DNA of 64,000 nucleotides from Skeletonema tropicum (taxonomy: Eukaryota; Bacillariophyta; Thalassiosirophyceae; Thalassiosirales; Thalassiosiraceae), in NCBI GenBank assembly GCA_037178625.1, contig CM074136.1:1178001-1242000 (forward strand). The letters run 5' to 3'. The stretch's first letter is position 1. Every line of letters begins with the position of its first letter. Shown piece by piece: positions 27,539 to 53,937 of this stretch. The position numbers and the translations under genes are program-made. Under the pieces are notes generated by a model, which saw only the letters and a list, made by a program, of their open reading frames with translations, had not been told where the DNA came from and ran no database searches.

Positions 27539-28320
27539 TCAGATATCGTCACTACCTAAAAACATATTATTGCCTTGAGCTTGAGGATCATAATGAAGAT
27601 CACCCCAGTCTTCATTTAGATACGAACGATTTCGCCTGTGCGTGTTGCCTTGGACTTGGGCATCATTGATTCTCTCGACTTGCATAGTCAGAGATAGAGC
27701 GGAGATCCAATCGTCGCCTTCTCCTTCTCCGAAGTCACTGACGATCATGGCAAGTCCTGAGGCGCAAGATGCTGGGTTTAGCTTAGGGCCTGGTTTACAG
27801 TTCTCACTCTTCGTCGGAATGCGCAGTTCTTGCGTGCCCATATCACTTCCTTTTACGACAGAAGTATTGGCAACAGCGGCAGAGATAGAAAGAGAAGACA
27901 AAGAGCTACATTCAGAAGCTTTTTGAACACGTAGCATCTCCAATGGAGAGATCTTGGCCTCTAACGCCTCGACGGAGGCAGCTGGAGCTGTGGAGGAGAC
28001 TATGTTAGGAATGTTATTGCAAGACTGGTGCTCGAGCTTCTTTGTGTGGCATGATGTGCTGTTCATGATGATATATATTGTATTGCTGATTGCTGGAGAT
28101 AATAATATGTCCTCTGCAGGGTGGTGATGGTTTTTGCACCGGACTGCTGGGAAGAGGGCTCGATTGAAAAGGGGTTCAACATCAACATCAATCAACTTCT
28201 ATTCCCGGGTCTAAGCACGGTTCACGAACGTTAGCTAAGACCCGTTTCATGGTTTTAAACTAGCTATGACCTGTTTCATGGTAGGAATAGCTGTCTAAAA
28301 AATAATGGAGTGATTTTCCA
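26996..28320. repeat. Segmental repeat A, copy 1
   Basis: A block of ~1.3 kb containing the 217-aa family gene and its 3' flank, also at ~30240-31570, ~32110-33385 and ~39415-40680. The flank carries a small hairpin, GCGGAGAAACTCCGC (~27014). Confidence 0.85.
27539..28195 (-). CDS. Unknown family protein, copy 1
   Basis: An orphan gene present four times here. The open frame reaches 28195 without an ATG; the first ATG is at 28066 (MNSTSCHTKKLEHQS), giving 175 aa. Features: His/Cys-containing head, Ser-rich segment, a central block ELRIPTKSENCKPGPKLN followed by ASCASGLAMI and an acidic DFGEGEGDDWISALSLTMQ, then a polar tail with NRSYLNEDWGDLHY. Upstream codons continue in copy 3 but are cut off by a TGA here because of one extra base in the ATCAAC repeat. 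Function unknown; no membrane segment. Confidence 0.5.
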   Translation of the reverse strand: MIDVDVEPLFNRALFPAVRCKNHHHPAEDILLSPAISNTIYIIMNSTSCHTKKLEHQSCNNIPNIVSSTAPAASVEALEAKISPLEMLRVQKASECSSLSSLSISAAVANTSVVKGSDMGTQELRIPTKSENCKPGPKLNPASCASGLAMIVSDFGEGEGDDWISALSLTMQVERINDAQVQGNTHRRNRSYLNEDWGDLHYDPQAQGNNMFLGSDDI

Positions 28321-28695
28321 AATTTTACACACAAAACACTAACAAAATGGTGAGAGTCATAAATATGGCCATGATACTCAACAAAAATACATAGAGAAGT
28401 CTAATCATATCATACCAATCAGTCATTATACATTATTTGCTGCATAAGAAACTGTAATTAATCGATATGGAGCACTTATCAACAAAATTGGCACCAAGGA
28501 CTGAAATTTCGAGCTAGAATGACGCATGCCTACGGCCTATCTGCATGCCTATTCTTGCTGTTTTGCGAGAGTAATGCTAATGATGTTGTCCAGTGGTTGA
28601 AAAGCAACATGCTAGCGGCGCCAAAAATTGACACATGCCAAAAATTGAGACAAAATTTATTCCAGCGCGCTCTCACACAAAACTCACACAGATGT
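28201..28695. repeat. Direct repeat of ~495 bp, copy 1
   Basis: Nearly identical to 31445-31938. It lies upstream of the 217-aa family gene and contains GACCTGTTTCATGG near-repeats at its start. No gene supported. Confidence 0.85.
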
Positions 28696-29195
28696 AGCAT
28701 AACCATGTCAGCACACCCCACTACTACAGCCCATAAATACATATTCGACAAAAAAGGCAAGCGGGTATGCCAAACTAAACACTAACCGAATATAGTTATT
28801 CGTTGGTTGAATTATTTATATCTATTCAACATGGAGGTATCTTCAATCGTTCCTGGGTGATTTTCCACATATTTACTAGATAAAATCACTAAGTAAAATC
28901 GCCCCAACACCCCCTCTGACCCATGCATTCTACCACGTCAGGATGAATACAGCAGTTACAATGTTGACCAGTGGCTCAAATGAAAGCTCTTTATATATGC
29001 TGTCATTATATGGCCGATGATTGTGGTGCTACGCCAAGAATGATGCATATCGGGGCCGCAACAGTAAAAATGTCGAAGATAGGGAGGAGTTTTGTGAGAC
29101 GGCCTCGCTCATCTTGCTAGCTTTTGCTTCTTATTTTTGTCTCAAATAAGTTCCACGTGGACAAATTGAGATGTCTCAATTTTTGGCGCCGCTAG
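28612..29195. mobile_element. MITE-like element with 20-bp inverted ends and CATG duplication
   Basis: Perfect terminal inverted repeats CTAGCGGCGCCAAAAATTGA at 28612-28631 and its complement at 29176-29195, flanked by CATG on both sides (28608-28611, 29196-29199). The 584-bp interior has no coding capacity. A related locus at ~32006-32030 (minus strand) reads AAAAGCAA-CATG-AACAA, which is the left flank, one CATG and the right flank: an apparent empty site. A truncated left end is at 31855-31938. Superfamily not determined. Confidence 0.6.
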
Positions 29196-29199
29196 CATG

Positions 29200-30240
29200 A
29201 ACAACACACTGCCTCACCCAGTTTTTTATGCAACATCAGAACATACTCATATTTATAGCTTTCGGTAATTTAATAACCATGTTGCGTCACAAAGTCCTTC
29301 TATATATTACGATAATTGATAATTACTATCAGTTTTATTAATTTCATGCCAATTACACGTATTGATAGAGTGTAGGCCGAATCATCCGCAATTGTTTTGA
29401 TACCATCCGGTAGGAAAGGTGTAGTTAGCAGTCACAAGATAATCTGAAACCAATGTAAAACGCTCAAAACAGACGGCTGTTGGTGTTGTAAGATGAAAGG
29501 GCCCCTATCTTGCGGAGTAAATATACTCAAAATCTCTTCAGATACTCTTTATGTGATAGGGTAGGGCCACCAAAATATGCTATATTTCAACCAGTCCAAT
29601 AATGTCGTAGCCGCAATGAAATAGAGAAACCTGGTCAGGCAGTATTGATTGTTATATAATATTCATCACCTCACTGAGTTTTGGCACCTTTTCATTCCAT
29701 TTTCTATCAGATATACGCATTATTCTTTACGATGTACATGAAGGAAATTATCCATTTTTACCACATGAATTCACTATGCCACCACATGCGTCATAGAGCA
29801 CTCAGACACACTTTCAAAGTAATAGACAGCCGCCGAATAGTATATAGTTGGCACCTGCAACGTTGTTAAGTGGCAGAGCAACTCCAACTATTCATCTGAA
29901 GACCATAATGGAAGCGCATCATCAACCTGCCATTTTCCGGCACCCTTACTTTGGTGTCATAGCATAGCATAGCATGTAGCGAAGGCGTTGGTCTATGATC
30001 AAATGAGGGCATCGCTTCACAGAAATAGTGTTGGAGAGAGAGTTTCTGCAGTACGGTCGTCTAAATTTATGTGTAGGTAGTGTTTACGGTGTCGACGCGA
30101 TAGGGGTCGAGGTGCGCCATGGTGGTGTGGAGTTGTGTGGACGGTGCCAATTTCTCCGAGGTGCGATTTTGTTCCCGCCAGTAGTATGCAGCCTACTTAC
30201 TTCAACCAGATGTAATATTGTTCAACTTCAGCCTCACTTA
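29200..30240. other. Gene-free spacer
   Basis: About 1 kb with no supported gene. Contains a small CATAG repeat at ~29957-29975. Open frames are short and unconserved. Confidence 0.5.
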
Positions 30241-31570
30241 GCGATGATGCATTGTAAAGCCGCGGAGAAACTCCGCTGCATGCAATTCTATTCTATGTCA
30301 CACAGAATATTATCTCTTGATGACGATTATGAAGTCGCGGAACAGCTGCCTTGCTTCAGTAACACGGCGGAGAAACAGATTTTTCCACAGCGTGACAATG
30401 GCTATTACATCATACATAATGTAAAATGACGATGATGATGAAGCTGCCTTGCTAGGTCCACACGTGGCCGCGTCACCAATTAATGGCTCCATCTTGACAA
30501 GCACATACTAATGCACAACATCTGAAGAACAGCGCCACATGCTACACAATGCACTCTTCACATCGACAGTCGACTAGTACCACACAGCAGCATTATAATG
30601 ACATAATAATTTGTTGAGGATAAATGTTTCCATTATCAATTCTTATGACTCTTCAGACATAACTATTGAGGTTGCGCTTGATCATTTTTCTTAAAGTATC
30701 AAGTATCACCTAGATAGATTACTACTAATTGATTGTTACTAATTGATTACTACTCATTGACATTGGAATCCGAAAAGCAGTAGTCTCAGATATCGTCTCT
30801 ACCTAAAAACATATTATTGCCTTGAGCTTGAGTATAATGACGATCACCCCATTCTTCATTTGGATACGAACGATTTCGCCTGTGCGTGTTGCCTTGGACT
30901 TGGGCATCATTGATTCTCTCGATTTGCATAGTCAGAGATAGAGCGGAGATCCAATCGTCGCCTTCTCCTTCTCCGAAGTCACTGACGATCATGGCAAGTC
31001 CTGAGGCGCAAGATGCTGGGTTTAGCTTAGGGCCTGGTTTACAGTTCTCACTCTTCGTCGGAATGCGCAGTTCTTGCGTGCCCATGTCACTTCCTTTTAC
31101 GACAGAAGTATTGGCAACAGCGGCAGAGATAGAAAGAGAAGACAAAGAGCTACATTCAGAAGCTTTTTGAACACGTAGCATCTCCAATGGAGAGATCTTG
31201 GCCTCTAACGCCTCGACGGAGGCAGCTGGAGCTGTGGAGGAGACTATGTTAGGAATGTTATTGCAAGACTGGTGCTCGTGCTTCTTTGTGTGGCATGATG
31301 TGCTGTTCATGATGATATATATTGTATTGCTGATTGCTGGAGATAATAATATGTCCTCTGCAGGGTGGTGATGGTTTATGCACCGGACTGCTGGGAAGAG
31401 GGCTCGATTGAAAAGGGGTTCAACATCAACATCAATCAACTTCTATTCCCGGGTCTAAGCACGGTTCACGAACGTTAGCTAAGACCCGTTTCATGGTTTT
31501 AAACTAGCTATGACCTGTTTCATGGTAGGAATAGCTGTCTAAAAAATAATGGAGTGATTTTCCAAATTTT
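30240..31570. repeat. Segmental repeat A, copy 2
   Basis: Near-identical to copy 1 through the gene and its upstream ~495 bp (to 31938). Confidence 0.85.
30786..31439 (-). CDS. Unknown family protein, copy 2
   Basis: Differs from copy 1 by a few residues (for example RSYPNEEWGDRHYTQ near the end). The same extra base interrupts the upstream extension, so the usable start is MNSTSCHTKKHEHQS at ~31310. The very high identity to copies 1 and 3 indicates recent duplication or gene conversion. Confidence 0.5.
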   Translation of the reverse strand: MIDVDVEPLFNRALFPAVRCINHHHPAEDILLSPAISNTIYIIMNSTSCHTKKHEHQSCNNIPNIVSSTAPAASVEALEAKISPLEMLRVQKASECSSLSSLSISAAVANTSVVKGSDMGTQELRIPTKSENCKPGPKLNPASCASGLAMIVSDFGEGEGDDWISALSLTMQIERINDAQVQGNTHRRNRSYPNEEWGDRHYTQAQGNNMFLGRDDI

Positions 31571-31938
31571 ACACACAAAACACTAACAAAATGGTGAGAG
31601 TCATAAATATGGCCATGATACTCGACAAAAATACATAGAGAAGTCTAATCATATCATACCAATCAGTCATTATACATTATTTGCTGCATAAGAAACTGTA
31701 ATTAATCGATATGGAGCACTTATCAACAAAATTGGCACCAAGGACTGAAATTTCGAGCTAGAATGACGCATGCCTACGGCCTATCTGCATGCCTATTCTT
31801 GCTGTTTTGCGAGAGTAATGCTAATGATGTTGTCCAGTGGTTGAAAAGCAACATGCTAGCGGCGCCAAAAATTGACACATGCCAAAAATTGAGACAAAAT
31901 TTATTCCAGCGCGCTCTCACACAAAACTCACACAGATG
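31445..31938. repeat. Direct repeat of ~495 bp, copy 2 (truncated)
   Basis: Matches 28201-28695 and then stops abruptly inside the MITE-like element, where an inverted segment (31946-32109) begins. Confidence 0.85.
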
Positions 31939-31945
31939 TTATGAA

Positions 31946-32109
31946 GGACTGAAATTTCGAGCTAATTTCAGTCCTTGGTGCCAATTTTGTTGATAAGTGC
32001 TCCATATCGATTGTTCATGTTGCTTTTCAACCACTGGACAACATCATTAGCATTACTCTCGCAAAACAGCAAGAATAGGCATGCAGATAGGCCGTAGGCA
32101 TGCGTCATT
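31946..32109. repeat. Inverted fragments of the preceding sequence
   Basis: 31963-32009 is the reverse complement of ~31704-31750 and ~32017-32109 that of ~31762-31854, joined in rearranged order around TTCATG. The centre (AAGGACTGAAATTTCGAGCT...AATTTCAGTCCTT) forms a hairpin. Confidence 0.75.
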
Positions 32110-33385
32110 CATGATGCATTGTAAAGCCGCGGAGAAACTCCGCTGCATGCAATTCTATTCTATGTCACACAGAATATTATCTCTTGATGACGATGATGAA
32201 GTCGCGGAACAGCTGCCTTGCTTCAGTAACACGGCGGAGAAACAGATTTTTCCACAGCGTGACAATGGCTATTACATCATACATAATGTAAAATGACGAT
32301 GATGATGAAGCTGCCTTGCTAGGTCCACACGTGGCCGCGTCACCAATTAATGGCTCCATCTTGACAAGCACATACTAATGCACAACATCTGAAGAACAGC
32401 GCCACATGCTACACAATGCACTCTTCACATCGACAGTCGACTAGTACCACACAGCAGCATTATAATGACATAATAATTTGTTGAGGATAAATGTTTCCAT
32501 TATCAATTCTTATGACTCTTCAGACATAACTATTGAGGTTGCGCTTGATCATTTTTCTTAAAGTATCAAGTATCACCTAGATAGATTACTACTAATTGAT
32601 TGTTACTAATTGATTACTACTCATTGACATTGGAATCCGAAAAGCAGTAGTCTCAGATATCGTCTCTACCTAAAAACATATTATTGCCTTGAGCTTGAGT
32701 ATAATGACGATCACCCCATTCTTCATTTGGATACGAACGATTTCGCCTGTGCGTGTTGCCTTGGACTTGGGCATCATTGATTCTCTCGATTTGCATAGTC
32801 AGAGATAGAGCGGAGATCCAATCGTCGCCTTCTCCTTCTCCGAAGTCACTGACGATCATGGCAAGTCCTGAGGCGCAAGATGCTGGGTTTAGCTTAGGGC
32901 CTGGTTTACAGTTCTCACTCTTCGTCGGAATGCGCAGTTCTTGCGTGCCCATGTCACTTCCTTTTACGACAGAAGTATTGGCAACAGCGGCAGAGATAGA
33001 AAGAGAAGACAAAGAGCTACATTCAGAAGCTTTTTGAACACGTAGCATCTCCAATGGAGAGATCTTGGCCTCTAACGCCTCGACGGAGGCAGCTGGAGCT
33101 GTGGAGGAGACTATGCCAGGAATGTTATCGCGAGACTGGTGTTCGTGCTTCTTTGTGTGGCATGATGTGCTGTTCATGATGATATATATTGTATTGCTGA
33201 TTGCTGGAGATAATAATATGTCCTCTGCAGGGTGGTGATGGTTTATGCACCGGACTGCTGGGAAGAGGGCTCGATTGAAAAGGGGTTCAACATCAACATC
33301 AACATCAACATCAACATCAACATCATCAACTTCTATTCCCGGGTCTAAGCACGGTTCACGAACGTTAGCTAAGACCCGTTTCATT
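32110..33385. repeat. Segmental repeat A, copy 3
   Basis: Third copy of the block, joined directly to the inverted fragments at its left. Confidence 0.85.
32653..33384 (-). CDS. Unknown family protein, copy 3 (longest, intact)
   Basis: The only copy open from an upstream ATG (33384; MKRVLANVREPCLDPGIE), giving 243 aa. After the head comes a Val-Asp dipeptide run encoded by an ATCAAC/GTTGAT hexanucleotide repeat (~33295-33330), longer than in copies 1 and 2, then the shared body with ELRIPTKSENC and DDWISALSLTMQ. It best represents the ancestral reading frame. Not similar to anything I recognise. Confidence 0.55.
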   Translation of the reverse strand: MKRVLANVREPCLDPGIEVDDVDVDVDVDVDVEPLFNRALFPAVRCINHHHPAEDILLSPAISNTIYIIMNSTSCHTKKHEHQSRDNIPGIVSSTAPAASVEALEAKISPLEMLRVQKASECSSLSSLSISAAVANTSVVKGSDMGTQELRIPTKSENCKPGPKLNPASCASGLAMIVSDFGEGEGDDWISALSLTMQIERINDAQVQGNTHRRNRSYPNEEWGDRHYTQAQGNNMFLGRDDI

Positions 33386-33580
33386 GTCAAATCCCTCTAA
33401 ATTGTACTAAGTATGTTGGCCTTACCTTGCTTGCTTTGAGTTGCAAACTTTAAGGGCAAATAATCTGAAAGGAAATGATTTTATCCCTTTCAAATTTTCA
33501 TTATGGTGGTGATACGTTGACATCCAGGATTAGTAAGTACTAGACCGGACCAGCTCGGCTGCTGGTCCGCTAGCCCACAC

Positions 33581-35628: not shown

Positions 35629-36950
35629 AGTAAGAGATTTATTTGCTACGCACGTGAAACGTGGTAGGGCTATTTGTGAGGAAAGTGTTAGGTTGCGGAA
35701 TCGTCAGCAACTCCGCCCGGTCTGAATGAAGTAATCATCTTCTGTGCCACTTCTGGTGTTGGGACTAGAGTTACTTCTACATAAATAGGCGATCGACTCG
35801 AAGTACCATAATCAAGTGCTTATTACTATATCATCCGTGCGTACGAAAGCCTTTGATTATTATTCCTACGAGTACTTCAGCTTCAGTCATTTGACAGCTT
35901 CTAAAATACATGTGGCTGTGTTTCTGCTTTTATGTATATTAAAGTGTAGATTCGGTACATCGCTAGCGCTGTAGTTAATGTTCATTTCCAATTTTAAGTG
36001 GATTGAAAGTTTGATTGAGTGGTAGACGCCAGTGCCCTTACTAGCCTCGTAGCACCTTCGCCACCTTGAGCATATTACAGCATGATACCTTGATATTTTT
36101 GTTGATCATTCGTGCATGAGAAAATCATGACATCCACAGCTTTAATTGAGTTATAGCTCAGCGAAGTAGCATACAAGAAGATTTATAGATGGCGCAGGCT
36201 CAGGGGGAAGCTAGCTGGCGGCATTTGTTTGTGTTTGGTCAATCACCTCAATCGCCTTTACATCGCTAGAAACAGTCAGCTTGAACTTTACAAGTACACA
36301 ATAATACTTAATCTGCGTCTGCTTAAGTAGAGTCCACACCGCGAGTTAGGGAATTACTCATAAAATATTGTAAGATGACGATATTGAAGTCGGAACAGCT
36401 GCCTTGCTTCAGTAACGCGGCGGAGAAAAGGATTCAACCTAAAGACCCTAAACAATTGCGTGATCGCGGATACATAATCCTCTGTAATCGTGGATTTCCC
36501 TCTACTCTTCAATGAAGCCTTTGAGCTCGCTTCTCAGCTTGACAGCTACATAAGTACATACATACATAAGTACTTATAGCTTAGCATCTTTATTCACGGT
36601 TGTTTTGTCACTCACTCTGTCACTCAGATCGCTTTTACATCGCTAGATAGAAGCAAAAGCAGCTGCCTGTGCACTTGAAGTAGGTACATAATCTCACTCG
36701 GAGATTTTCAAGAGGAGATCTAAATGGGGTACGATGAATACTTGACTAAGCGTGGATTTAATTACCCCTTGTTTTTGAGAACCAAAGTTATGGTACCTTA
36801 GTGGCAAGCAGGCAAAGGCAAACAACTTCGTAGAATACCCTATTGAAAACGTATTGCGTGATCGCGGATTATCCTATGTAATCGTCGATTTTCCCCTGTA
36901 CTCTTCAATTATGCCTTTGACGCTCACTCAGCTTGACGGCTACCTAAGAG

Positions 36951-36958
36951 TACATAGC
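36951..36958 (-). other. Empty integration target of the 2-kb repeat array
   Basis: The minus strand reads GCTATGTA followed by CTCT. In arm 2 the same sequence is split after GTA by the four-unit array (45681-53937). It resembles the unit junction GCTAAGTA. Confidence 0.75.
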
Positions 36959-36996
36959 TTTGAATCATAATATGCACAACAAAGAAGAACAATATC

Positions 36997-37455
36997 ATGG
37001 TGTCTGAATTGATCGTAGACTTCCCTCCTAAACGCAACCATGAAGTTGTGCGATTTGCCGAAACAGTACAGCTCTACACAGTTGATCGACACCAAGACAA
37101 AAACGAGCTATGGTACACCAAGGCAGAATACAAGTCAATCAAACGTCATCTTAAGCGAGATGTCCTCCAAGCTCGTGCAAGTGATTCGGCTTCCGATAAT
37201 GACAGTGGCTTCTGGATTGGTATTCCTCATCTACTCACACCGGCCTGTACGTTCGAGGTGCAGGCTTGCAGACGTCGATGTGTACGTGCAGTCCTCGCAG
37301 AGCAGGCGAGCCAGGACAAAGACGGAAGTTTCAGGCCGGAAGATATTGCACTTGATTCGTTCGCCGAAACGAAGAGGGCCGTATTGAGAGCTAGAAAGCT
37401 TGGAAGGCTTCACCAGGATTGTATTGAAAAATATTGCAGTCAATCTTCTCTCTAG
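36997..37455 (+). CDS. Orphan 152-aa protein, inverted-duplication copy 1
   Basis: Starts MVSELIVDFPPKRNHEVVRF; the central ETVQLYTVDRHQDKNELWYT and KAEYKSIKRHLKRDV resemble a short unnamed domain I recall as common in diatom proteins (a hydrophobic-aromatic V-x-F strand followed by WY and a basic helix). The C-terminus is basic (KLGRLHQDCIEKYC). The almost identical copy at 45176-45634 keeps the frame. Function unknown; probably a single-domain protein. Confidence 0.6.
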   Translation: MVSELIVDFPPKRNHEVVRFAETVQLYTVDRHQDKNELWYTKAEYKSIKRHLKRDVLQARASDSASDNDSGFWIGIPHLLTPACTFEVQACRRRCVRAVLAEQASQDKDGSFRPEDIALDSFAETKRAVLRARKLGRLHQDCIEKYCSQSSL

Positions 37456-39300: not shown

Positions 39301-39414
39301 ATACATACAGCGGGTAATGACCTTCGTGATCTTGTGACAATGGCCGAGCCAAAGCACCCATGTAGAGGATACTTCAACCAGATGTAATATTGTTCAACTT
39401 CAGTTTCACTTAGC

Positions 39415-40683
39415 GATGATGCATTGTAAAGCGGCGGAGAAACTCCGCTGCATGCATGCATTCTATTTTATGTCACATCATCGTGCAGAACAGCTGCCTT
39501 GCTTCAGTAACACGGCGGAGAAACAGAATTTTCCACAGCGTGACAATGGCTATTACATCATACATAATGTAATATGACGATGATGATGAATGCTGCCTTG
39601 CTAGGTCCACACGTGGCCGCGTCACCTATCAATACATATCAATGGCTCCATCTTGACGTGACAAGCACATGCATACTCAAGCACTACATTTGAAGAACAG
39701 CGCCACATGCTACACAATGCACTCTTCACATCGATAGTGAAGTACCACATAGCAGCATTGTAATTGCATAATAATTTGTGAAGGATTAATGTGTTTCCAC
39801 TATCATTTCTTATGACTCTTCAGACATAACTATTGAGGTTGCGCTTGATCTCTTTTCTAAAGTATGATTGTTACTAATTGATTACTACTAATTGACATTG
39901 GAATCCGAAAAGCAGTAGTCTCAGATATCGTCTCTACCTAAAAACATATTATTGCCTTGAGCTTGAGTATAATGAAGATCGCCCCAGGCTTCATTTGGAT
40001 ACGAACGATTTCGCCTGTGCGTGTTGCCTTGGACTTGGGCATCATTGATTCTCTCGACTTGCATAGTCAGAGATAGAGCGGAGATCCAATCGTCGCCTTC
40101 TTCTTCTCCGAAGCCACTGATGATCATGGCAAGTCCTGAGGCACAAGATGCTCGGTTTAGAGTAGGGCCTGGTTTACAGTTCTCACTCTTCGTGGGAATG
40201 CGCAGTTCTTGCGTGCCCATGTCACTTCCTTCTCTTGAGCCAGCGTTGACATCGGCATCGTTAGTCGATTTGGAAAGAGTAGTGGTCATAGAACTGTCTT
40301 TTCCGAAGCCACTGAAGATCATGGCAAGTCCTGAGGCGCAAGATGCTTGGTTTAGCTTAGGGCCTTGTTTACAGTTCTCACTCTTCGTCGGAATGCGCAG
40401 TTCTTGCATGTCACTTCCTTGTACGACAGAAGCATTAACAACAGCGGTAGAGCTGGAAAGAGAAGACAAAGAACTACATTCAGAAGAGCTTTGAACACGT
40501 AGCATCTCCAATGGAGAGATCTTGTCCTTCAACCGCCTCGACGGAGGCAGCAGGAGCTGTGGAGGAGACTATGCCAGGAATGTTATTGCGAGACTGGTGC
40601 TCGTGCTTCGTTGTGTGGCATGATGTGCTGTTCATGATGATATTGTATGGCTTGATGGTACCTATTACGGCTGTACTGCTCAA
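39415..40683. repeat. Segmental repeat A, copy 4 (diverged)
   Basis: The most diverged copy. Its downstream flank again includes the GCGGAGAAACTCCGC hairpin. Confidence 0.8.
39921..40683 (-). pseudogene. Unknown family protein, copy 4, internal duplication and frameshift
   Basis: The start-side frame (40683-40480, including MNSTSCHTTKHEHQS) and the main frame (40532-39921) are separated by a frameshift near GCGGTTGAAGGACAAGATC. The body contains the ELRIPTKSENC...ASCASGLAMI module twice, separated by a short Ser/Thr-rich linker (SSMTTTLSKSTNDADVNAG). The other copies have it once. Confidence 0.6.
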
Positions 40684-42874: not shown

Positions 42875-43807
42875 CTACGCTGCACTATTGTTCCATGACA
42901 ACTGCTTCGAACTGGGGGGATGCGACGGAGTACAAAGATCTTGGAGATACTGAGCATACTCATCATGTTTCCTCCAACAACCTTCTTCTCGCTTCTGTCG
43001 TGACCTCCAACATTTTCGTGATGCCTTTTGCATCTCCTTGATTATCCCAACATGGGCACCACTCTCTATAGCTAGTTCGATGGGGTTCATTTCTTCATTG
43101 TCTTCAACGTTGACGGAGCTTGGTGCGGACTGAATCAGTAGCCCTACCGCCCAAAACATGTGCTGATGACATCGGAGGGAGTTGGTACCCTTGTTCTTTC
43201 GAAGGAATTCCTCACAGACGTAGTGAAGGGGGGTCTTCCCTAGTGCATCTTTCACCCCGGCACTAGCGCTGTTTGCATTGATCAGAAAGGAGATCATGTC
43301 CGGCCCGGCACCGCTGATGGCAGCTACATGTATTGGAAACCGTCCATCGCTGTCTGCATGGTACAGCGACTTCCAATATCTCGAGGAAAGGCAAAGGAGA
43401 ATATCCTTGGGGGCTCTATGCGAACATGCATGATGTATTATGAGGTCTCTTGTGACGGCTCCATCCTCGTCTATGATGTCAACGTCGTCCTTTCCAGTGG
43501 TAAGGAGCTCTTGTATGTCCATCCATCTCTCATACGCAATCATCTCGCAGAGATTAGGACCATCTCTCCTCGCAGTCTGAGGGCTGCTTGGTTCGACCGG
43601 GGCTCCTTCTTCTTCAGGAACCTCGGCATTAGTGTCGCTACCCGCATCATCGTCGACTTCGAGATCAATCGTTGGTTGTCTCTTTTCTGCTAGGAGTAGA
43701 TTCTTCTCTCCAACATTCTTCTTCTTGCGGTCACGCCAGGACGGCTTCCGTTTCAACACAGATCTCAACATGATGTTATGGCTATGGCTATGACGAATAT
43801 TGGCCAT
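42875..43807 (-). CDS. Ankyrin-repeat protein
   Basis: A 310-aa protein. The N-terminus is basic (LKRKPSWRDRKKKN) then acidic. About four ankyrin repeats span ~110-270, seen as LIIHHACSHRAPKDILLCL, RFPIHVAAISGAGPDMISFL, KTPLHYVCEEFL and NPIELAIESGAHVGII. A basic helix and a polar tail follow. Typical of the large ankyrin families of diatoms, with a presumed protein-interaction role. Single exon. Confidence 0.85.
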   Translation of the reverse strand: MANIRHSHSHNIMLRSVLKRKPSWRDRKKKNVGEKNLLLAEKRQPTIDLEVDDDAGSDTNAEVPEEEGAPVEPSSPQTARRDGPNLCEMIAYERWMDIQELLTTGKDDVDIIDEDGAVTRDLIIHHACSHRAPKDILLCLSSRYWKSLYHADSDGRFPIHVAAISGAGPDMISFLINANSASAGVKDALGKTPLHYVCEEFLRKNKGTNSLRCHQHMFWAVGLLIQSAPSSVNVEDNEEMNPIELAIESGAHVGIIKEMQKASRKCWRSRQKREEGCWRKHDEYAQYLQDLCTPSHPPSSKQLSWNNSAA

Positions 43808-44889: not shown

Positions 44890-45680
44890 CTCTTCATCTC
44901 ACATTTAGGGCTCTCTCTTGAGAGCTAGGAAGCTTGGTAGGCTTCATCAGGATTGTAGTAAAGAATTTGCAGTCAATCTTTTTCTACGGTCGTTTGCATA
45001 CTTAGCGACGTTTGTATAGTGGTGCTATGACCATGGCTTTCGTGCACACAAAAAATAAAGATAACAGAGATGATTGATGTGAATATTCAATATAGAATCT
45101 AATGCTAACTTATACGATACTCAGTTGTAATTGTCATTTTTATTCTTATTTTACATCAATTGTAATACACACGACCTAGAGAGAAGATTGACTGCAATAT
45201 TTTTCAATACAATCCTGGTGAAGCCTTCCAAGCTTTCTAGCTCTCAATACGGCCCTCTTCGTTTCGGCGAACGAAGCAAGTGCAATATCTTCCGGCCTGA
45301 AACTTCCGTCTTTGTCCTGGCTCGCCTGCTCTGCGAGGACTGCACGTACGCATCGACGTCTGCAAGCCTGCACCTCGAACGTACAGGCCGGCGTGAGTAC
45401 ATGAGGAATACCAATCCAGAAGCCACTGTCATTATCGGAAGCCGAATCACTTGCACGCGCTTGGAGGACATCTCGCTTAAGGTGACGTTTGATTGACTTG
45501 TATTCTGCCTTGGTGTACCATAGCTCGTTTTTGTCTTGGTGTCGATCAACTGTGTAAAGCTGTACTGTTTCGGCAAATCGCACAACTTCATGGTTGCGTT
45601 TAGGAGGGAAGTCTACGATCAATTCAGACACCATGATATTGTTCTTCTTTGTTGTGCATATTATGATTCAAAGCTATGTA
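44890..45680. repeat. Large inverted duplication, arm 2, outer part
   Basis: Inverted match to ~36951-37890. Includes a plus-strand relic of the 152-aa gene's 3' end at ~44915-44990 (LRARKLGRLHQDC). Confidence 0.85.
45176..45634 (-). CDS. Orphan 152-aa protein, inverted-duplication copy 2
   Basis: Differs from 36997-37455 by only two residues in translation (HVLTP for HLLTP and ALASF for ALDSF). Retention of the open frame in both arms suggests either a recent duplication or selection. Confidence 0.6.
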   Translation of the reverse strand: MVSELIVDFPPKRNHEVVRFAETVQLYTVDRHQDKNELWYTKAEYKSIKRHLKRDVLQARASDSASDNDSGFWIGIPHVLTPACTFEVQACRRRCVRAVLAEQASQDKDGSFRPEDIALASFAETKRAVLRARKLGRLHQDCIEKYCSQSSL

Positions 45681-45940
45681 TTGTTTCATGAGAATAAGGG
45701 GACAAAAGGGACCTTGACGGGTGAAGTACAGACATCTTCAAAAAGGGGAGACAAAACCAGGAGGGAGCCCAACCCACCACGAACCCTACTGAAAAACCCA
45801 CACAACATAATGCAGGAAAAGGGCTCCCACCAATAACCCTACTGAAATACCCACACGCATAATGCAGGAAAAGATTGGAATGAAAGTCAATATCGATCAA
45901 TATTATATCAAACGGAACGAACAAATTCACATATATTATA

Positions 45941-46381
45941 TTAAACTAAATATTCTTGCTTCCTCTTCTTCTGTTGGGGTTCTACCGGTGCATTGTTTGT
46001 CTTTTTCGCCTTACGCTTCTTGCCACCCTTCAACAATCCTCTATCCACCATTTTGTTGTAGCATGTTCTCCAACTGTTCTGCTCCCTACAACTTTTTGCA
46101 GCGCTCTTTGCTCCGTGCTTCCCTTGCGTTACGAGGTACGGATCTAAAAGAGGCCAAACTTTCGAGTACAGCGTCGCCACCTTGCTACCATCCCACTTAC
46201 CATCCGACGGCCAAGCATCCACTGTCATTCCAAAGTGCTTTACCTTCTCCATTACTTTACTCATCTTCGAGATGTCCCTCTTTCCATTTTTAACGTGTTC
46301 GATGAAATTATTGTTAGCGTGGAGGAGTCGATACGGTGGTATGTTGTTCTTTTTATCCCCAAGAAACCACTTGGTGATCAA
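45941..46381 (-). CDS. Recombinase-element C-terminal frame (ORF2), unit 1
   Basis: 146 codons continuing in the same frame as ORF1 after a single TGA (46384-46382). No ATG at its start (first codon TTG). Residues KWFLGDKKNNIPPYRLL, then a helical region with DAWPSDGKWDG and YSKVWPLLDPYL, and a basic tail (KGGKKRKAKKTNN). From memory, diatom and oomycete recombinase-like proteins end with a W-x-x-W-F-x-G...PPYR segment and a basic DNA-binding region, so ORF2 looks like the natural C-terminus of ORF1. Confidence 0.55.
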   Translation of the reverse strand: MITKWFLGDKKNNIPPYRLLHANNNFIEHVKNGKRDISKMSKVMEKVKHFGMTVDAWPSDGKWDGSKVATLYSKVWPLLDPYLVTQGKHGAKSAAKSCREQNSWRTCYNKMVDRGLLKGGKKRKAKKTNNAPVEPQQKKRKQEYLV

Positions 46382-47323
46382 TCAGTTCATGTTCATCTGG
46401 GGAAAAGTAAAATCTGGAGGAAGAGGAGTCAAAATGCCTTCAGAACTCACCCCCATCGACCACTTCCGCTGCTGAAGCATCTCCTCTCTTCGCTTCTTTG
46501 CAAGCGCCTCTTTGACCAACGGGGTGACCGCAGCCTTATCCACACCATCCAACGTAGGTTCCTCTGCTGCAATGTCGTATTCTACCACTAAATCATCAAC
46601 ATCATTGTCTTCTTCCTCCTCGTCGTCGTCGAAGGGACGGCGGGTCCTACCACTGGGGCGCTCATAAATGTTTCCAGCTTTCTCTAGTAGCGCATCCAGC
46701 TTCTCCATGATGATGGTTGATTGCGTAAAGTTTGTTCCTCCAACATTTCTTGAATCTAGCTGATTTACTAAGATGTCTTTGAATGATTCCTTGAGATCCT
46801 CTTTCATCTTGGCTAGCTCTTCCTTCAAGCTCTGCACCTTTACCAACAAAGCAACATCTGGAGGTATACCAGTAAGCTCTGGCGTGTCATCTGTCTTGTT
46901 CCAAGGGTACTTTGTTGTCACACAATCAGCGAATGGAACATCCTCGATCCAGAAAATGCTTGTGCGCAGTGGACAATTTGAATGCATTGAGTCAAGGTTC
47001 CCCTTCTTCTTGTGATACACAAGCGATGCAATGCATGCCTTAAACAGTAAAAATACAGCCTCATTTGAGCGTGCCTCCACGGGCATACGAGCCTTAATCC
47101 AAGCATTTACAGCAGCATGCCGGGCGGCATATTCTGCTCCGTCAAAGTCACTGAAATCGAAGTATGGCTGTGACTCCGCAAAACCAACACCCAGTCTATC
47201 CCTACCACAAACCACCTTTCCAACGTGTTCATCACCAGCATCGGCAATCTTGATGTAGCGGTTCAACATGCCGGGCAAAGTCCAACTAGCACGAAGACAA
47301 CTTGAGGAAATAGGTGGTGCCAC
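46382..47323 (-). CDS. Tyrosine-recombinase-like C-terminal protein (ORF1), unit 1
   Basis: 313 codons; the frame opens at a GTG (47323), with upstream codons KGGATHCATGCI back to a stop. CLRASWTLPGMLNRYIKIAD resembles the end of a phage-integrase-type catalytic domain (after the R-K-G-x-A-T box), where RYI would hold the nucleophilic Tyr. Then DAGDEHVGKVVCGRD, KYPWNKTDDTPELTGIPP, a coiled coil (LKEELAKMKEDLKES) and an acidic run (DDDEEEEDNDVDD). The N-terminal core with the first catalytic Arg is not in the unit. Assignment is by remembered similarity. First ATG at 47269. Confidence 0.6.
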   Translation of the reverse strand: MAPPISSSCLRASWTLPGMLNRYIKIADAGDEHVGKVVCGRDRLGVGFAESQPYFDFSDFDGAEYAARHAAVNAWIKARMPVEARSNEAVFLLFKACIASLVYHKKKGNLDSMHSNCPLRTSIFWIEDVPFADCVTTKYPWNKTDDTPELTGIPPDVALLVKVQSLKEELAKMKEDLKESFKDILVNQLDSRNVGGTNFTQSTIIMEKLDALLEKAGNIYERPSGRTRRPFDDDEEEEDNDVDDLVVEYDIAAEEPTLDGVDKAAVTPLVKEALAKKRREEMLQQRKWSMGVSSEGILTPLPPDFTFPQMNMN

Positions 47324-48006
47324 AATGCACCCTGTTGCACAATGTGTGGCGCCCCCCTTTTACTAGCAGTAGTAGGCATGATGGCTGGGGAGTGTAATTT
47401 CTAATGCGGCGGTTGACGGCTTGGTCTACTTATTCTCTCACTGTTTTTTGTTCTGCTGCGGCGCTGCGGCGGGGGAGAGGAAGGATGAAGAAGGGGAGGT
47501 GTTTTGGCATTTAGCATGCACGTTACGTTTGGAACTCGTACACGAGTGCGTAGAAAATCAGGGGACAAAGTTGAACTCAAAACCAAAACTGCGCTGGCAT
47601 AGAAACGCGAGCCTAACAAATTGCGCGTGATCATCCAAACTAAAACACATTTATTTTGAGAAAAAAGGCCAGTTTCCAGTTTGTCCCCCTATTTGTAAAA
47701 ACGCCCAGAAAACTGCCCATGTTGTCCCCTAAATCTGGGCTAAGTATTGTTTCATGAGAATAAGGGGACAAAAGGGACCTTGACGGGTGAAGTACAGACA
47801 TCTTCAAAAAGGGGAGACAAAACCAGGAGGGAGCCCAACCCACCACGAACCCTACTGAAAAACCCACACAACATAATGCAGGAAAAGGGCTCCCACCAAT
47901 AACCCTACTGAAATACCCACACGCATAATGCAGGAAAAGATTGGAATGAAAGTCAATATCGATCAATATTATATCAAACGGAACGAACAAATTCACATAT
48001 ATTATA

Positions 48007-48447
48007 TTAAACTAAATATTCTTGCTTCCTCTTCTTCTGTTGGGGTTCTACCGGTGCATTGTTTGTCTTTTTCGCCTTACGCTTCTTGCCACCCTTCAAC
48101 AATCCTCTATCCACCATTTTGTTGTAGCATGTTCTCCAACTGTTCTGCTCCCTACAACTTTTTGCAGCGCTCTTTGCTCCGTGCTTCCCTTGCGTTACGA
48201 GGTACGGATCTAAAAGAGGCCAAACTTTCGAGTACAGCGTCGCCACCTTGCTACCATCCCACTTACCATCCGACGGCCAAGCATCCACTGTCATTCCAAA
48301 GTGCTTTACCTTCTCCATTACTTTACTCATCTTCGAGATGTCCCTCTTTCCATTTTTAACGTGTTCGATGAAATTATTGTTAGCGTGGAGGAGTCGATAC
48401 GGTGGTATGTTGTTCTTTTTATCCCCAAGAAACCACTTGGTGATCAA
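48007..48447 (-). CDS. Recombinase-element ORF2, unit 2
   Basis: Identical in translation to 45941-46381. Confidence 0.55.
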   Translation of the reverse strand: MITKWFLGDKKNNIPPYRLLHANNNFIEHVKNGKRDISKMSKVMEKVKHFGMTVDAWPSDGKWDGSKVATLYSKVWPLLDPYLVTQGKHGAKSAAKSCREQNSWRTCYNKMVDRGLLKGGKKRKAKKTNNAPVEPQQKKRKQEYLV

Positions 48448-49389
48448 TCAGTTCATGTTCATCTGGGGAAAAGTAAAATCTGGAGGAAGAGGAGTCAAAA
48501 TGCCTTCAGAACTCACCCCCATCGACCACTTCCGCTGCTGAAGCATCTCCTCTCTTCGCTTCTTTGCAAGCGCCTCTTTGACCAACGGGGTGACCGCAGC
48601 CTTATCCACACCATCCAACGTAGGTTCCTCTGCTGCAATGTCGTATTCTACCACTAAATCATCAACATCATTGTCTTCTTCCTCCTCGTCGTCGTCGAAG
48701 GGACGGCGGGTCCTACCACTGGGGCGCTCATAAATGTTTCCAGCTTTCTCTAGTAGCGCATCCAGCTTCTCCATGATGATGGTTGATTGCGTAAAGTTTG
48801 TTCCTCCAACATTTCTTGAATCTAGCTGATTTACTAAGATGTCTTTGAATGATTCCTTGAGATCCTCTTTCATCTTGGCTAGCTCTTCCTTCAAGCTCTG
48901 CACCTTTACCAACAAAGCAACATCTGGAGGTATACCAGTAAGCTCTGGCGTGTCATCTGTCTTGTTCCAAGGGTACTTTGTTGTCACACAATCAGCGAAT
49001 GGAACATCCTCGATCCAGAAAATGCTTGTGCGCAGTGGACAATTTGAATGCATTGAGTCAAGGTTCCCCTTCTTCTTGTGATACACAAGCGATGCAATGC
49101 ATGCCTTAAACAGTAAAAATACAGCCTCATTTGAGCGTGCCTCCACGGGCATACGAGCCTTAATCCAAGCATTTACAGCAGCATGCCGGGCGGCATATTC
49201 TGCTCCGTCAAAGTCACTGAAATCGAAGTATGGCTGTGACTCCGCAAAACCAACACCCAGTCTATCCCTACCACAAACCACCTTTCCAACGTGTTCATCA
49301 CCAGCATCGGCAATCTTGATGTAGCGGTTCAACATGCCGGGCAAAGTCCAACTAGCACGAAGACAACTTGAGGAAATAGGTGGTGCCAC
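48448..49389 (-). CDS. Recombinase-element ORF1, unit 2
   Basis: Identical in translation to 46382-47323, with the same TGA before ORF2. Confidence 0.6.
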   Translation of the reverse strand: MAPPISSSCLRASWTLPGMLNRYIKIADAGDEHVGKVVCGRDRLGVGFAESQPYFDFSDFDGAEYAARHAAVNAWIKARMPVEARSNEAVFLLFKACIASLVYHKKKGNLDSMHSNCPLRTSIFWIEDVPFADCVTTKYPWNKTDDTPELTGIPPDVALLVKVQSLKEELAKMKEDLKESFKDILVNQLDSRNVGGTNFTQSTIIMEKLDALLEKAGNIYERPSGRTRRPFDDDEEEEDNDVDDLVVEYDIAAEEPTLDGVDKAAVTPLVKEALAKKRREEMLQQRKWSMGVSSEGILTPLPPDFTFPQMNMN

Positions 49390-50072
49390 AATGCACCCTG
49401 TTGCACAATGTGTGGCGCCCCCCTTTTACTAGCAGTAGTAGGCATGATGGCTGGGGAGTGTAATTTCTAATGCGGCGGTTGACGGCTTGGTCTACTTATT
49501 CTCTCACTGTTTTTTGTTCTGCTGCGGCGCTGCGGCGGGGGAGAGGAAGGATGAAGAAGGGGAGGTGTTTTGGCATTTAGCATGCACGTTACGTTTGGAA
49601 CTCGTACACGAGTGCGTAGAAAATCAGGGGACAAAGTTGAACTCAAAACCAAAACTGCGCTGGCATAGAAACGCGAGCCTAACAAATTGCGCGTGATCAT
49701 CCAAACTAAAACACATTTATTTTGAGAAAAAAGGCCAGTTTCCAGTTTGTCCCCCTATTTGTAAAAACGCCCAGAAAACTGCCCATGTTGTCCCCTAAAT
49801 CTGGGCTAAGTATTGTTTCATGAGAATAAGGGGACAAAAGGGACCTTGACGGGTGAAGTACAGACATCTTCAAAAAGGGGAGACAAAACCAGGAGGGAGC
49901 CCAACCCACCACGAACCCTACTGAAAAACCCACACAACATAATGCAGGAAAAGGGCTCCCACCAATAACCCTACTGAAATACCCACACGCATAATGCAGG
50001 AAAAGATTGGAATGAAAGTCAATATCGATCAATATTATATCAAACGGAACGAACAAATTCACATATATTATA

Positions 50073-50513
50073 TTAAACTAAATATTCTTGCTTCCTCTTC
50101 TTCTGTTGGGGTTCTACCGGTGCATTGTTTGTCTTTTTCGCCTTACGCTTCTTGCCACCCTTCAACAATCCTCTATCCACCATTTTGTTGTAGCATGTTC
50201 TCCAACTGTTCTGCTCCCTACAACTTTTTGCAGCGCTCTTTGCTCCGTGCTTCCCTTGCGTTACGAGGTACGGATCTAAAAGAGGCCAAACTTTCGAGTA
50301 CAGCGTCGCCACCTTGCTACCATCCCACTTACCATCCGACGGCCAAGCATCCACTGTCATTCCAAAGTGCTTTACCTTCTCCATTACTTTACTCATCTTC
50401 GAGATGTCCCTCTTTCCATTTTTAACGTGTTCGATGAAATTATTGTTAGCGTGGAGGAGTCGATACGGTGGTATGTTGTTCTTTTTATCCCCAAGAAACC
50501 ACTTGGTGATCAA
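50073..50513 (-). CDS. Recombinase-element ORF2, unit 3
   Basis: Identical in translation to unit 1 ORF2. Confidence 0.55.
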   Translation of the reverse strand: MITKWFLGDKKNNIPPYRLLHANNNFIEHVKNGKRDISKMSKVMEKVKHFGMTVDAWPSDGKWDGSKVATLYSKVWPLLDPYLVTQGKHGAKSAAKSCREQNSWRTCYNKMVDRGLLKGGKKRKAKKTNNAPVEPQQKKRKQEYLV

Positions 50514-51455
50514 TCAGTTCATGTTCATCTGGGGAAAAGTAAAATCTGGAGGAAGAGGAGTCAAAATGCCTTCAGAACTCACCCCCATCGACCACTTCCG
50601 CTGCTGAAGCATCTCCTCTCTTCGCTTCTTTGCAAGCGCCTCTTTGACCAACGGGGTGACCGCAGCCTTATCCACACCATCCAACGTAGGTTCCTCTGCT
50701 GCAATGTCGTATTCTACCACTAAATCATCAACATCATTGTCTTCTTCCTCCTCGTCGTCGTCGAAGGGACGGCGGGTCCTACCACTGGGGCGCTCATAAA
50801 TGTTTCCAGCTTTCTCTAGTAGCGCATCCAGCTTCTCCATGATGATGGTTGATTGCGTAAAGTTTGTTCCTCCAACATTTCTTGAATCTAGCTGATTTAC
50901 TAAGATGTCTTTGAATGATTCCTTGAGATCCTCTTTCATCTTGGCTAGCTCTTCCTTCAAGCTCTGCACCTTTACCAACAAAGCAACATCTGGAGGTATA
51001 CCAGTAAGCTCTGGCGTGTCATCTGTCTTGTTCCAAGGGTACTTTGTTGTCACACAATCAGCGAATGGAACATCCTCGATCCAGAAAATGCTTGTGCGCA
51101 GTGGACAATTTGAATGCATTGAGTCAAGGTTCCCCTTCTTCTTGTGATACACAAGCGATGCAATGCATGCCTTAAACAGTAAAAATACAGCCTCATTTGA
51201 GCGTGCCTCCACGGGCATACGAGCCTTAATCCAAGCATTTACAGCAGCATGCCGGGCGGCATATTCTGCTCCGTCAAAGTCACTGAAATCGAAGTATGGC
51301 TGTGACTCCGCAAAACCAACACCCAGTCTATCCCTACCACAAACCACCTTTCCAACGTGTTCATCACCAGCATCGGCAATCTTGATGTAGCGGTTCAACA
51401 TGCCGGGCAAAGTCCAACTAGCACGAAGACAACTTGAGGAAATAGGTGGTGCCAC
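50514..51455 (-). CDS. Recombinase-element ORF1, unit 3
   Basis: Identical in translation to unit 1 ORF1. Confidence 0.6.
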   Translation of the reverse strand: MAPPISSSCLRASWTLPGMLNRYIKIADAGDEHVGKVVCGRDRLGVGFAESQPYFDFSDFDGAEYAARHAAVNAWIKARMPVEARSNEAVFLLFKACIASLVYHKKKGNLDSMHSNCPLRTSIFWIEDVPFADCVTTKYPWNKTDDTPELTGIPPDVALLVKVQSLKEELAKMKEDLKESFKDILVNQLDSRNVGGTNFTQSTIIMEKLDALLEKAGNIYERPSGRTRRPFDDDEEEEDNDVDDLVVEYDIAAEEPTLDGVDKAAVTPLVKEALAKKRREEMLQQRKWSMGVSSEGILTPLPPDFTFPQMNMN

Positions 51456-52138
51456 AATGCACCCTGTTGCACAATGTGTGGCGCCCCCCTTTTACTAGCA
51501 GTAGTAGGCATGATGGCTGGGGAGTGTAATTTCTAATGCGGCGGTTGACGGCTTGGTCTACTTATTCTCTCACTGTTTTTTGTTCTGCTGCGGCGCTGCG
51601 GCGGGGGAGAGGAAGGATGAAGAAGGGGAGGTGTTTTGGCATTTAGCATGCACGTTACGTTTGGAACTCGTACACGAGTGCGTAGAAAATCAGGGGACAA
51701 AGTTGAACTCAAAACCAAAACTGCGCTGGCATAGAAACGCGAGCCTAACAAATTGCGCGTGATCATCCAAACTAAAACACATTTATTTTGAGAAAAAAGG
51801 CCAGTTTCCAGTTTGTCCCCCTATTTGTAAAAACGCCCAGAAAACTGCCCATGTTGTCCCCTAAATCTGGGCTAAGTATTGTTTCATGAGAATAAGGGGA
51901 CAAAAGGGACCTTGACGGGTGAAGTACAGACATCTTCAAAAAGGGGAGACAAAACCAGGAGGGAGCCCAACCCACCACGAACCCTACTGAAAAACCCACA
52001 CAACATAATGCAGGAAAAGGGCTCCCACCAATAACCCTACTGAAATACCCACACGCATAATGCAGGAAAAGATTGGAATGAAAGTCAATATCGATCAATA
52101 TTATATCAAACGGAACGAACAAATTCACATATATTATA

Positions 52139-52579
52139 TTAAACTAAATATTCTTGCTTCCTCTTCTTCTGTTGGGGTTCTACCGGTGCATTGTTTGTCT
52201 TTTTCGCCTTACGCTTCTTGCCACCCTTCAACAATCCTCTATCCACCATTTTGTTGTAGCATGTTCTCCAACTGTTCTGCTCCCTACAACTTTTTGCAGC
52301 GCTCTTTGCTCCGTGCTTCCCTTGCGTTACGAGGTACGGATCTAAAAGAGGCCAAACTTTCGAGTACAGCGTCGCCACCTTGCTACCATCCCACTTACCA
52401 TCCGACGGCCAAGCATCCACTGTCATTCCAAAGTGCTTTACCTTCTCCATTACTTTACTCATCTTCGAGATGTCCCTCTTTCCATTTTTAACGTGTTCGA
52501 TGAAATTATTGTTAGCGTGGAGGAGTCGATACGGTGGTATGTTGTTCTTTTTATCCCCAAGAAACCACTTGGTGATCAA
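52139..52579 (-). CDS. Recombinase-element ORF2, unit 4
   Basis: Identical in translation to unit 1 ORF2. Confidence 0.55.
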   Translation of the reverse strand: MITKWFLGDKKNNIPPYRLLHANNNFIEHVKNGKRDISKMSKVMEKVKHFGMTVDAWPSDGKWDGSKVATLYSKVWPLLDPYLVTQGKHGAKSAAKSCREQNSWRTCYNKMVDRGLLKGGKKRKAKKTNNAPVEPQQKKRKQEYLV

Positions 52580-53521
52580 TCAGTTCATGTTCATCTGGGG
52601 AAAAGTAAAATCTGGAGGAAGAGGAGTCAAAATGCCTTCAGAACTCACCCCCATCGACCACTTCCGCTGCTGAAGCATCTCCTCTCTTCGCTTCTTTGCA
52701 AGCGCCTCTTTGACCAACGGGGTGACCGCAGCCTTATCCACACCATCCAACGTAGGTTCCTCTGCTGCAATGTCGTATTCTACCACTAAATCATCAACAT
52801 CATTGTCTTCTTCCTCCTCGTCGTCGTCGAAGGGACGGCGGGTCCTACCACTGGGGCGCTCATAAATGTTTCCAGCTTTCTCTAGTAGCGCATCCAGCTT
52901 CTCCATGATGATGGTTGATTGCGTAAAGTTTGTTCCTCCAACATTTCTTGAATCTAGCTGATTTACTAAGATGTCTTTGAATGATTCCTTGAGATCCTCT
53001 TTCATCTTGGCTAGCTCTTCCTTCAAGCTCTGCACCTTTACCAACAAAGCAACATCTGGAGGTATACCAGTAAGCTCTGGCGTGTCATCTGTCTTGTTCC
53101 AAGGGTACTTTGTTGTCACACAATCAGCGAATGGAACATCCTCGATCCAGAAAATGCTTGTGCGCAGTGGACAATTTGAATGCATTGAGTCAAGGTTCCC
53201 CTTCTTCTTGTGATACACAAGCGATGCAATGCATGCCTTAAACAGTAAAAATACAGCCTCATTTGAGCGTGCCTCCACGGGCATACGAGCCTTAATCCAA
53301 GCATTTACAGCAGCATGCCGGGCGGCATATTCTGCTCCGTCAAAGTCACTGAAATCGAAGTATGGCTGTGACTCCGCAAAACCAACACCCAGTCTATCCC
53401 TACCACAAACCACCTTTCCAACGTGTTCATCACCAGCATCGGCAATCTTGATGTAGCGGTTCAACATGCCGGGCAAAGTCCAACTAGCACGAAGACAACT
53501 TGAGGAAATAGGTGGTGCCAC
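52580..53521 (-). CDS. Recombinase-element ORF1, unit 4
   Basis: Identical in translation to unit 1 ORF1. Confidence 0.6.
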   Translation of the reverse strand: MAPPISSSCLRASWTLPGMLNRYIKIADAGDEHVGKVVCGRDRLGVGFAESQPYFDFSDFDGAEYAARHAAVNAWIKARMPVEARSNEAVFLLFKACIASLVYHKKKGNLDSMHSNCPLRTSIFWIEDVPFADCVTTKYPWNKTDDTPELTGIPPDVALLVKVQSLKEELAKMKEDLKESFKDILVNQLDSRNVGGTNFTQSTIIMEKLDALLEKAGNIYERPSGRTRRPFDDDEEEEDNDVDDLVVEYDIAAEEPTLDGVDKAAVTPLVKEALAKKRREEMLQQRKWSMGVSSEGILTPLPPDFTFPQMNMN

Positions 53522-53937
53522 AATGCACCCTGTTGCACAATGTGTGGCGCCCCCCTTTTACTAGCAGTAGTAGGCATGATGGCTGGGGAGTGTAATTTCT
53601 AATGCGGCGGTTGACGGCTTGGTCTACTTATTCTCTCACTGTTTTTTGTTCTGCTGCGGCGCTGCGGCGGGGGAGAGGAAGGATGAAGAAGGGGAGGTGT
53701 TTTGGCATTTAGCATGCACGTTACGTTTGGAACTCGTACACGAGTGCGTAGAAAATCAGGGGACAAAGTTGAACTCAAAACCAAAACTGCGCTGGCATAG
53801 AAACGCGAGCCTAACAAATTGCGCGTGATCATCCAAACTAAAACACATTTATTTTGAGAAAAAAGGCCAGTTTGTCCCCCTATTTGTAAAAACGCCCAGA
53901 AAACTGCCCATGTTGTCCCCTAAATCTGGGCTAAGTA

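Follow-up and report, generated by a model that had tools for sequence, protein, structure and literature searches.

We describe a tandem array of a DNA transposon in a 64,000-nucleotide stretch of the Skeletonema tropicum genome (GCA_037178625.1, contig CM074136.1, positions 1,178,001 to 1,242,000, forward strand), hereafter the window, in which four near-identical units stand head to tail. The explanation that accounts best for this array, and that we consider likely, is that its unit is a non-autonomous Crypton, a mobile element of the tyrosine recombinase (YR) type, on which a recombinase acted in trans, and that the array grew as the ends of one local copy recombined again. The enzyme that moves the unit is probably not its own but one produced elsewhere. 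The assembly that holds the window comprises 78.4 Mb in 125 contigs; we denote contigs by C numbers (the window is C10:1178001-1242000), genomic loci by L numbers and relative proteins by P numbers.

The array is evident when the window, which contains no Ns, is compared with itself. At a lag of 2,066 bp there is a single exact run of 6,130 bp (45678-51807), and past a 7-bp difference the match resumes at a lag of 2,059 bp over 51808-51878. Units 1-3 have 2,066 bp each and are identical to one another, and unit 4 has 2,059 bp, with one CCAGTTT in place of two. The array of four units is real in the assembly, and a chance origin of the repeat is excluded because of its length and because the same element occurs at other loci. 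A preliminary description of this DNA had recognized the four head-to-tail units, which the exact lag match confirms, but had set their boundaries 2 bp too far to the right, as two empty sites indicate (see below). It had also read the 7-bp difference as the loss of one CCAGTTT from unit 4. Since the doubled motif, searched as an exact pattern across the window and L009-L040, is seen only in window units 1-3, the difference is most simply a gain in these three units.

The ends of the element and its target were characterized at 23 independent left ends, counting segmental copies once (L015-L017 were dropped for L014, L030 for L029 and L019 for L018) and leaving out five altered left ends (L021 and L031-L034), and at 24 right ends found through the pattern GGGCTAA. 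On the host side the left ends show TAWGTA in 17/23 cases and TA in all 23. The right end of the element is GGGCTAAG in 23 of the 24 and GGGCTAAA in one, followed by TA (18 cases), TG (2), TC (2), GA (1) or TT (1). Two empty sites are available. The joined flanks of the window array align without gaps over 296/300 bp, at 98.6% identity, to a paralogous site at 36805-37100 of the window. The flanks of the L014 group, joined without TA, match 238/238 bp at 100% in all 40 places that were scored, so that there are at least 40 such places. Because these sites fix the crossover, the insertion point lies after TAWG: the element brings its own TATTG...CTAAG, and host bases are neither duplicated nor removed. 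The element thus displays the hallmarks of Cryptons, namely short direct repeats (TAWG on the host side, TAAG at the element end), no long terminal inverted repeats (TIRs) or long terminal repeats, and no target-site duplication. When the ends are joined, two 15-bp inverted arms (13/15 matching), which sit 11-25 bp from each element end, surround 20 bp holding the crossover. We do not claim a structured single-strand site at this junction. Folded as a single strand, the bare 50 bp of the circle junction give z values of -2.0/-2.4, but in a 94-nt context these become -0.9/-0.5, so that the fold is unconvincing; the circle junction of a divergent family gives another single-strand fold.

The preliminary description had proposed a genome search for units with other flanks, and this did reveal copies at other loci: with one unit as query we obtained at least 60 matches, a lower bound given that 40 of 49 candidates were scored, and 32 regions were retrieved for piece mapping. 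Allowing up to three mismatches, the right end was found 37 times and the left end 42 times, and the reversed control patterns were not found at all. A right end joined to a left end was seen eight times without mismatch: three times in the window, twice on C16 and once each on C7, C14 and C23. These contigs carry four further arrays with units head to tail, of three units on C16 and of two units each on C7, C14 and C23. Unit 1 of the C16 array is interrupted by a 2.19-kb insert (L018/L019, C16:451042-453227) with AAATT on both sides; the inverted ends of this insert start with TACCGTCGGGCATCC, and it looks like another TIR transposon. The C23 array (L036) is built of a divergent family (L036-L040), which has the left end in common with the element, a portion of the right end in 4/5 loci, and a different middle; L036, L038 and L039 are about 91% identical to the element at the right end and 82% at the left. 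At L014-L017 (C75 and C11), the element lies inside a host repeat, with three C11 copies 4,883 bp apart near the contig end.

The units were said to encode identical proteins and, in particular, a tyrosine-recombinase-like protein. The encoded sequences are indeed the same in all units, but they are pieces, a frame of 313 amino acids (aa) that has no ATG and a 146-aa frame set off from it by an in-frame TGA, and what is left would not make a useful recombinase: R258, K285, H372 and R375 (P0001 numbering) are gone, and W401/Y410 and the C-terminal region are kept. With everything before K376 missing, in addition to the TGA, no window unit holds a complete YR gene. The TGA is present in 4/4 window units and in 0/29 other unit sequences of an alignment made without L033-L040. 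Two copies, L021 (C18) and L032 (C20), have 1,118 bp extra at unit position 1679, coding for the recombinase core, through which a frame is open for 761 codons in L032 and 438 codons in L021. The long open reading frames (ORFs) of these two copies are parts of one YR gene, the sole mobility gene, with no reverse transcriptase; no other ORF in them exceeds 160 codons. We read the window units as a deletion derivative of this 3.17-kb element, and the proteins of the window are, judged from sequence, dead remnants. P0004, a protein cluster of 26 member sequences that come from a different source, starts at the first residues of the window remnant, MAPPISS, as would fit a deletion form that occurs elsewhere too.

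The identity of the enzyme rests on an alignment of P0001, 30 other relatives (together 31 of the 60 relative proteins) and L032. R258, K285, R375, W401 and Y410 are invariant in this set and H372 is present in at least 90%; we take these six to be the catalytic positions from the motif and from what is known of Cre. For an intact relative, 79% identical, the predicted fold matches Cre, Flp and Ndc10. The longer element is predicted to encode a tyrosine recombinase that resembles Cre and Flp and extends into a long C-terminal region. This region aligns among the relatives; GCR1_C has no match in the L032 ORF or in 32 relatives, and the C48 peptidase domain PF02902 is present in P0005, P0007 and P0010. 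The named relatives (Discostella, a name beginning Extub, and Fragilaria) are presumably all diatoms. Pfam gave no match to the ORFs of the window units, nor to the long ORF of L032 and the pieces of L021. Among the 32 relatives it gave weak matches only, to Phage_int_SAM_4 in two, NDC10_II in one and Phage_integrase in one, along with six unrelated families in one relative each. The silence of Pfam is uninformative on whether the element is of the YR type. A lack of profile similarity had been named as grounds for rejecting the recombinase; such a comparison would mislead here, with Pfam silent on the units and a few relatives matching weakly, yet a predicted fold like that of Cre and Flp. 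Searches of PDB sequences, with a single protein and with a profile, found no tyrosine recombinase, and among viral contigs 37 stretches fit a pattern, none of them a relative. A 289-aa core probe had 12 matches in the genome, two at 100% (the places of L021 and L032) and ten at 29-33%. Two of the latter, L041/L043 (C3) and L042 (C18), have open frames of 873/883 codons with the same YR motifs and form a separate lineage at 32-33% identity to the probe.

How the arrays grew was addressed by comparing the units within the window, C7, C16 and C14 arrays, and by comparing 17 loci, some less than full length, in 136 pairs. There are 0 substitutions between units inside each of the four arrays; in C16, a 1-bp indel separates units 1 and 2. 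The nearest other locus is 9 substitutions away for the window, 9 for C7, 2 for C16 and 11 for C14. Identical locus pairs number 3/136, all among L010, L013 and L029. With an estimated ~124,000 TAWGTA sites in the genome, eight random insertions would be expected to yield about 0.003 joins onto an existing end, by a crude calculation. Because of the zero divergence within arrays, the exact junctions and this low random expectation, we favor an origin of the arrays in which the ends of a copy already present at the locus recombined. We infer that a YR catalyzes insertion, that it acts in trans and that circles exist. The trans-supplied recombinase would carry out recombination between a host TAWG^ site and the joined ends (CTAAG^TATTG), with neither duplication nor loss of host bases. 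Every insertion would itself be a new target, because both junctions again hold TAWG^. The ends of one local element could then recombine again and yield a tandem array, either by sister-chromatid exchange between the left and right junctions of the local copy or through a circle that forms from this copy and re-inserts beside it. Because three of four units carry the 7-bp gain, the window array would have grown on after one unit had gained it, perhaps by ordinary homologous unequal exchange. The proposal of a Crypton-like YR element, arranged head to tail with circle-type junctions and growing by recombination, is thus supported. Of the two routes suggested at the outset, integration of circles or unequal exchange, growth by recombination stands, and the zero substitutions within arrays disfavor unrelated circles arriving in series.

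Several observations weigh against this account. We identified no working recombinase for these ends in the assembly; two intact YR relatives, L041/L043 and L042, do occur there. In both core-bearing copies, L021 and L032, an in-frame TAA precedes the core frame and the left end is altered. More generally, 5/28 left ends (L021 and L031-L034) begin 2-8 bp inside the element and have no TAWG, that of L032 being adjoined, by eye, by the end of another transposon; the right end of L030, the dropped copy of L029, is altered too. The aligned range of the Cre fold match ends near residue 405, before the tyrosine, in a low-confidence part of the model. Finally, once two units were present, homologous unequal exchange could account for all later growth.

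This last point leads to the alternative in which generic tandem duplication and unequal crossing-over amplified a transposon-bearing locus and no recombinase was needed. The units are homogeneous, the 7-bp gain in units 1-3 requires amplification after the gain, and homologous exchange is an ordinary path from two to four units. Nevertheless, five arrays joined exactly at the crossover point of single insertions are left unexplained, and the element has no long terminal repeats with which to start the process; we regard this alternative as unlikely. We give slightly less credit to serial integration, in which independent circles of the family entered one site in turn. The junctions are exactly of the circle type, each insertion renews the TAWG^ targets, and the dispersed copies L010, L013 and L029, with 0 substitutions, indicate that identical copies from one source do spread; in C16, moreover, the margin is small, the nearest other locus being so close. 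Independent circles are nonetheless hard to reconcile with four arrays lacking internal substitutions when 133/136 locus pairs differ, and with a TGA found in every window unit and in none of the 29 other unit sequences. An assembly artefact, by which the number of units was inflated from one or two, is improbable. Identical 2-kb units are hard to count, but unit 4 differs from units 1-3, host sequence runs on at both sides, and there are four further arrays, that of C16 with its unit 1 split by another insert. Least credible is a Tc1/mariner-like DDE element that duplicates its TA target, or a Helitron with a captured YR gene fragment: TA flanks most copies (the right dinucleotide is TA in 18/24) and inverted GGGGACAA lies close to both ends, but the L014-type empty site has neither TA nor a duplication, the host site matches the right end of the element itself (TAWG) as in site-specific crossover, the core-bearing copies have no long ORF apart from the YR gene, and insertion is after TAWG, whereas Helitrons insert between A and T.

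Beyond the account favored above, we tentatively raise, and ourselves rather doubt, the idea that a eukaryotic YR element may skip the usual two-strand exchange over a 6-8 bp overlap in favor of exchanging a single strand and then replicating, as integron cassettes do. At position -4 the host has T or C at 15/23 left ends and the element's A stands at 24/24 right ends; TATT starts 0/24 right flanks, and the element's TATT is present at the 23/23 left ends kept as intact. The change from host to element sequence is confined to a single sharp point, whereas mixtures would be the expected outcome of an ordinary staggered exchange, and this hints at such a mode. This sharpness is partly built in, as left ends were kept partly for their TATTG start, right ends were found by GGGCTAA and the five altered left ends were excluded, and biased mismatch repair would also give sharp junctions. 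A single-strand exchange, for which the Vibrio elements discussed below offer a parallel, would produce the pattern. If the idea is true, the element is copied rather than moved and homogeneous arrays beside the donor follow naturally; Cryptons would be copy-out elements and head-to-tail arrays their normal by-product.

Table 1. Coordinates of the array, its junctions and its coding remnants in the window
Feature	Position	Strand	Basis
Unit 1, non-autonomous Crypton, crossover to crossover, 2,066 bp	45679..47744	- (coding strand)	exact repeat; boundaries by two empty sites
Unit 2, identical to unit 1	47745..49810	-	exact repeat
Unit 3, identical to unit 1	49811..51876	-	exact repeat
Unit 4, 2,059 bp, single CCAGTTT as in other copies	51877..53935	-	repeat comparison and pattern
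Left junction with the host, GCTATG^TA; TAWG^ is the target motif and TA is part of the element	45673..45680	.	junction comparison
Right junction GGGCTAAG^TA; the TA that follows the element end is host sequence	53928..53937	.	junction comparison
Unit 1/2 junction, as expected for a circle junction; crossover G^TA inside	47722..47771	.	pattern
Unit 2/3 junction, 50 bp identical to unit 1/2 junction	49788..49837	.	exact repeat
Unit 3/4 junction, 50 bp identical to unit 1/2 junction	51854..51903	.	exact repeat
Doubled CCAGTTT in unit 1 (also in units 2 and 3; not in unit 4)	47669..47682	+	exact pattern
313-aa open frame of unit 1, lacking an ATG; end of YR domain (W, Y) and start of C-terminal region	46382..47323	-	ORF and alignment
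Same 313-aa frame in units 2-4	+2066, +4132, +6198		
Unit 1 C-terminal region continued past in-frame TGA (146-aa ORF)	45941..46381	-	ORF and alignment
Unit 1 internal deletion scar with TT microhomology; same in units 2-4	47355..47362	-	comparison with L021/L032
Paralogous empty site	36805..37100	-	alignment to joined array flanks

Elsewhere in the window, several diverged local repeats with identities of up to 97.7% precede the array (26977-33387 and 39370-40643); they and the empty site lie in one repeat-rich stretch. A gene for an ankyrin-repeat protein is found at 42875-43807, with relatives 42-83% identical, two of them from MMETSP transcriptomes.

The element is of a known kind, in an organization for which we found no description; tandem arrays of Cryptons were not reported in the open-licence literature searched, where the portions of PMC12477816 consulted hold no Crypton and those of PMC4157794 add nothing on arrays. 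Calling it an undescribed YR-type element was too strong, since Cryptons, a diatom Crypton and non-autonomous Cryptons have been published (PMC3212892). In the sections of that work used here, no studies of Crypton transposition had been made as of 2011 (Kojima and Jurka 2011). The S. tropicum genome offers near-identical insertions, two exact empty sites, a defined TAWG^ target and a circle-type junction fixed eight times in chromosomes, and a clear deletion derivative, presumably moved in trans, adds to this set. With substrates, expected products and crossover point in hand, the Crypton reaction becomes directly testable. The arrays also suggest a way in which homogeneous repeats can be produced in a eukaryote by a site-specific recombinase.

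Cryptons have 4- or 6-bp terminal direct repeats, and CryptonS, known from oomycetes and a diatom, has 5- or 6-bp repeats and in some members a C48 peptidase (Kojima and Jurka 2011, PMC3212892, in the sections drawn on here). By its published description, CryptonS resembles our element as a YR-only DNA transposon with short terminal direct repeats, and perhaps also in lacking a GCR1_C match and in having a C-terminal region common to relatives; the peptidase of some members recurs among the present relatives. The majority of CryptonS termini read TATGG, whereas here the host side is often TATG and the element end TAAG. Our element differs in its TAWG^/TAAG ends, in the inverted GGGGACAA arms near both ends, and in its head-to-tail arrays, of which the cited sections make no mention for CryptonS. 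Among the non-autonomous derivatives known in an insect and medaka, CryptonI-1N1_RPro, CryptonA-1N1_OL and CryptonA-1N2_OL are, like ours, internally shortened and outnumber the autonomous form (PMC3212892). The Rhodnius family, according to the same sections, yielded no terminal repeats, in contrast to the exact short direct repeats, defined target and arrays reported here. Among other eukaryotic DNA transposons, KolobokP forms tandem multimers that, in the part of PMC9587614 considered, are explained by unequal crossover or re-insertion of a circle; unlike our element, it has a DDD/E transposase, long terminal direct repeats common to neighbors, and target-site duplications. Tandem arrays of a site-specifically integrating element are also described for Salmonella genomic island 1 (PMC2297512, in part), but this is a bacterial genomic island. 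A parallel in behavior is offered by the YR elements SE-6945 and SE-6283 of Vibrio, which are bacterial, with a length of 7.1 kb for SE-6945 and 6 bp of flank entering the circle. As set out in the portion of PMC9345347 used here, one strand is circularized in a strand-biased manner and no empty donor is left, a mode that would permit both a gain of copies and re-insertion next to the donor.

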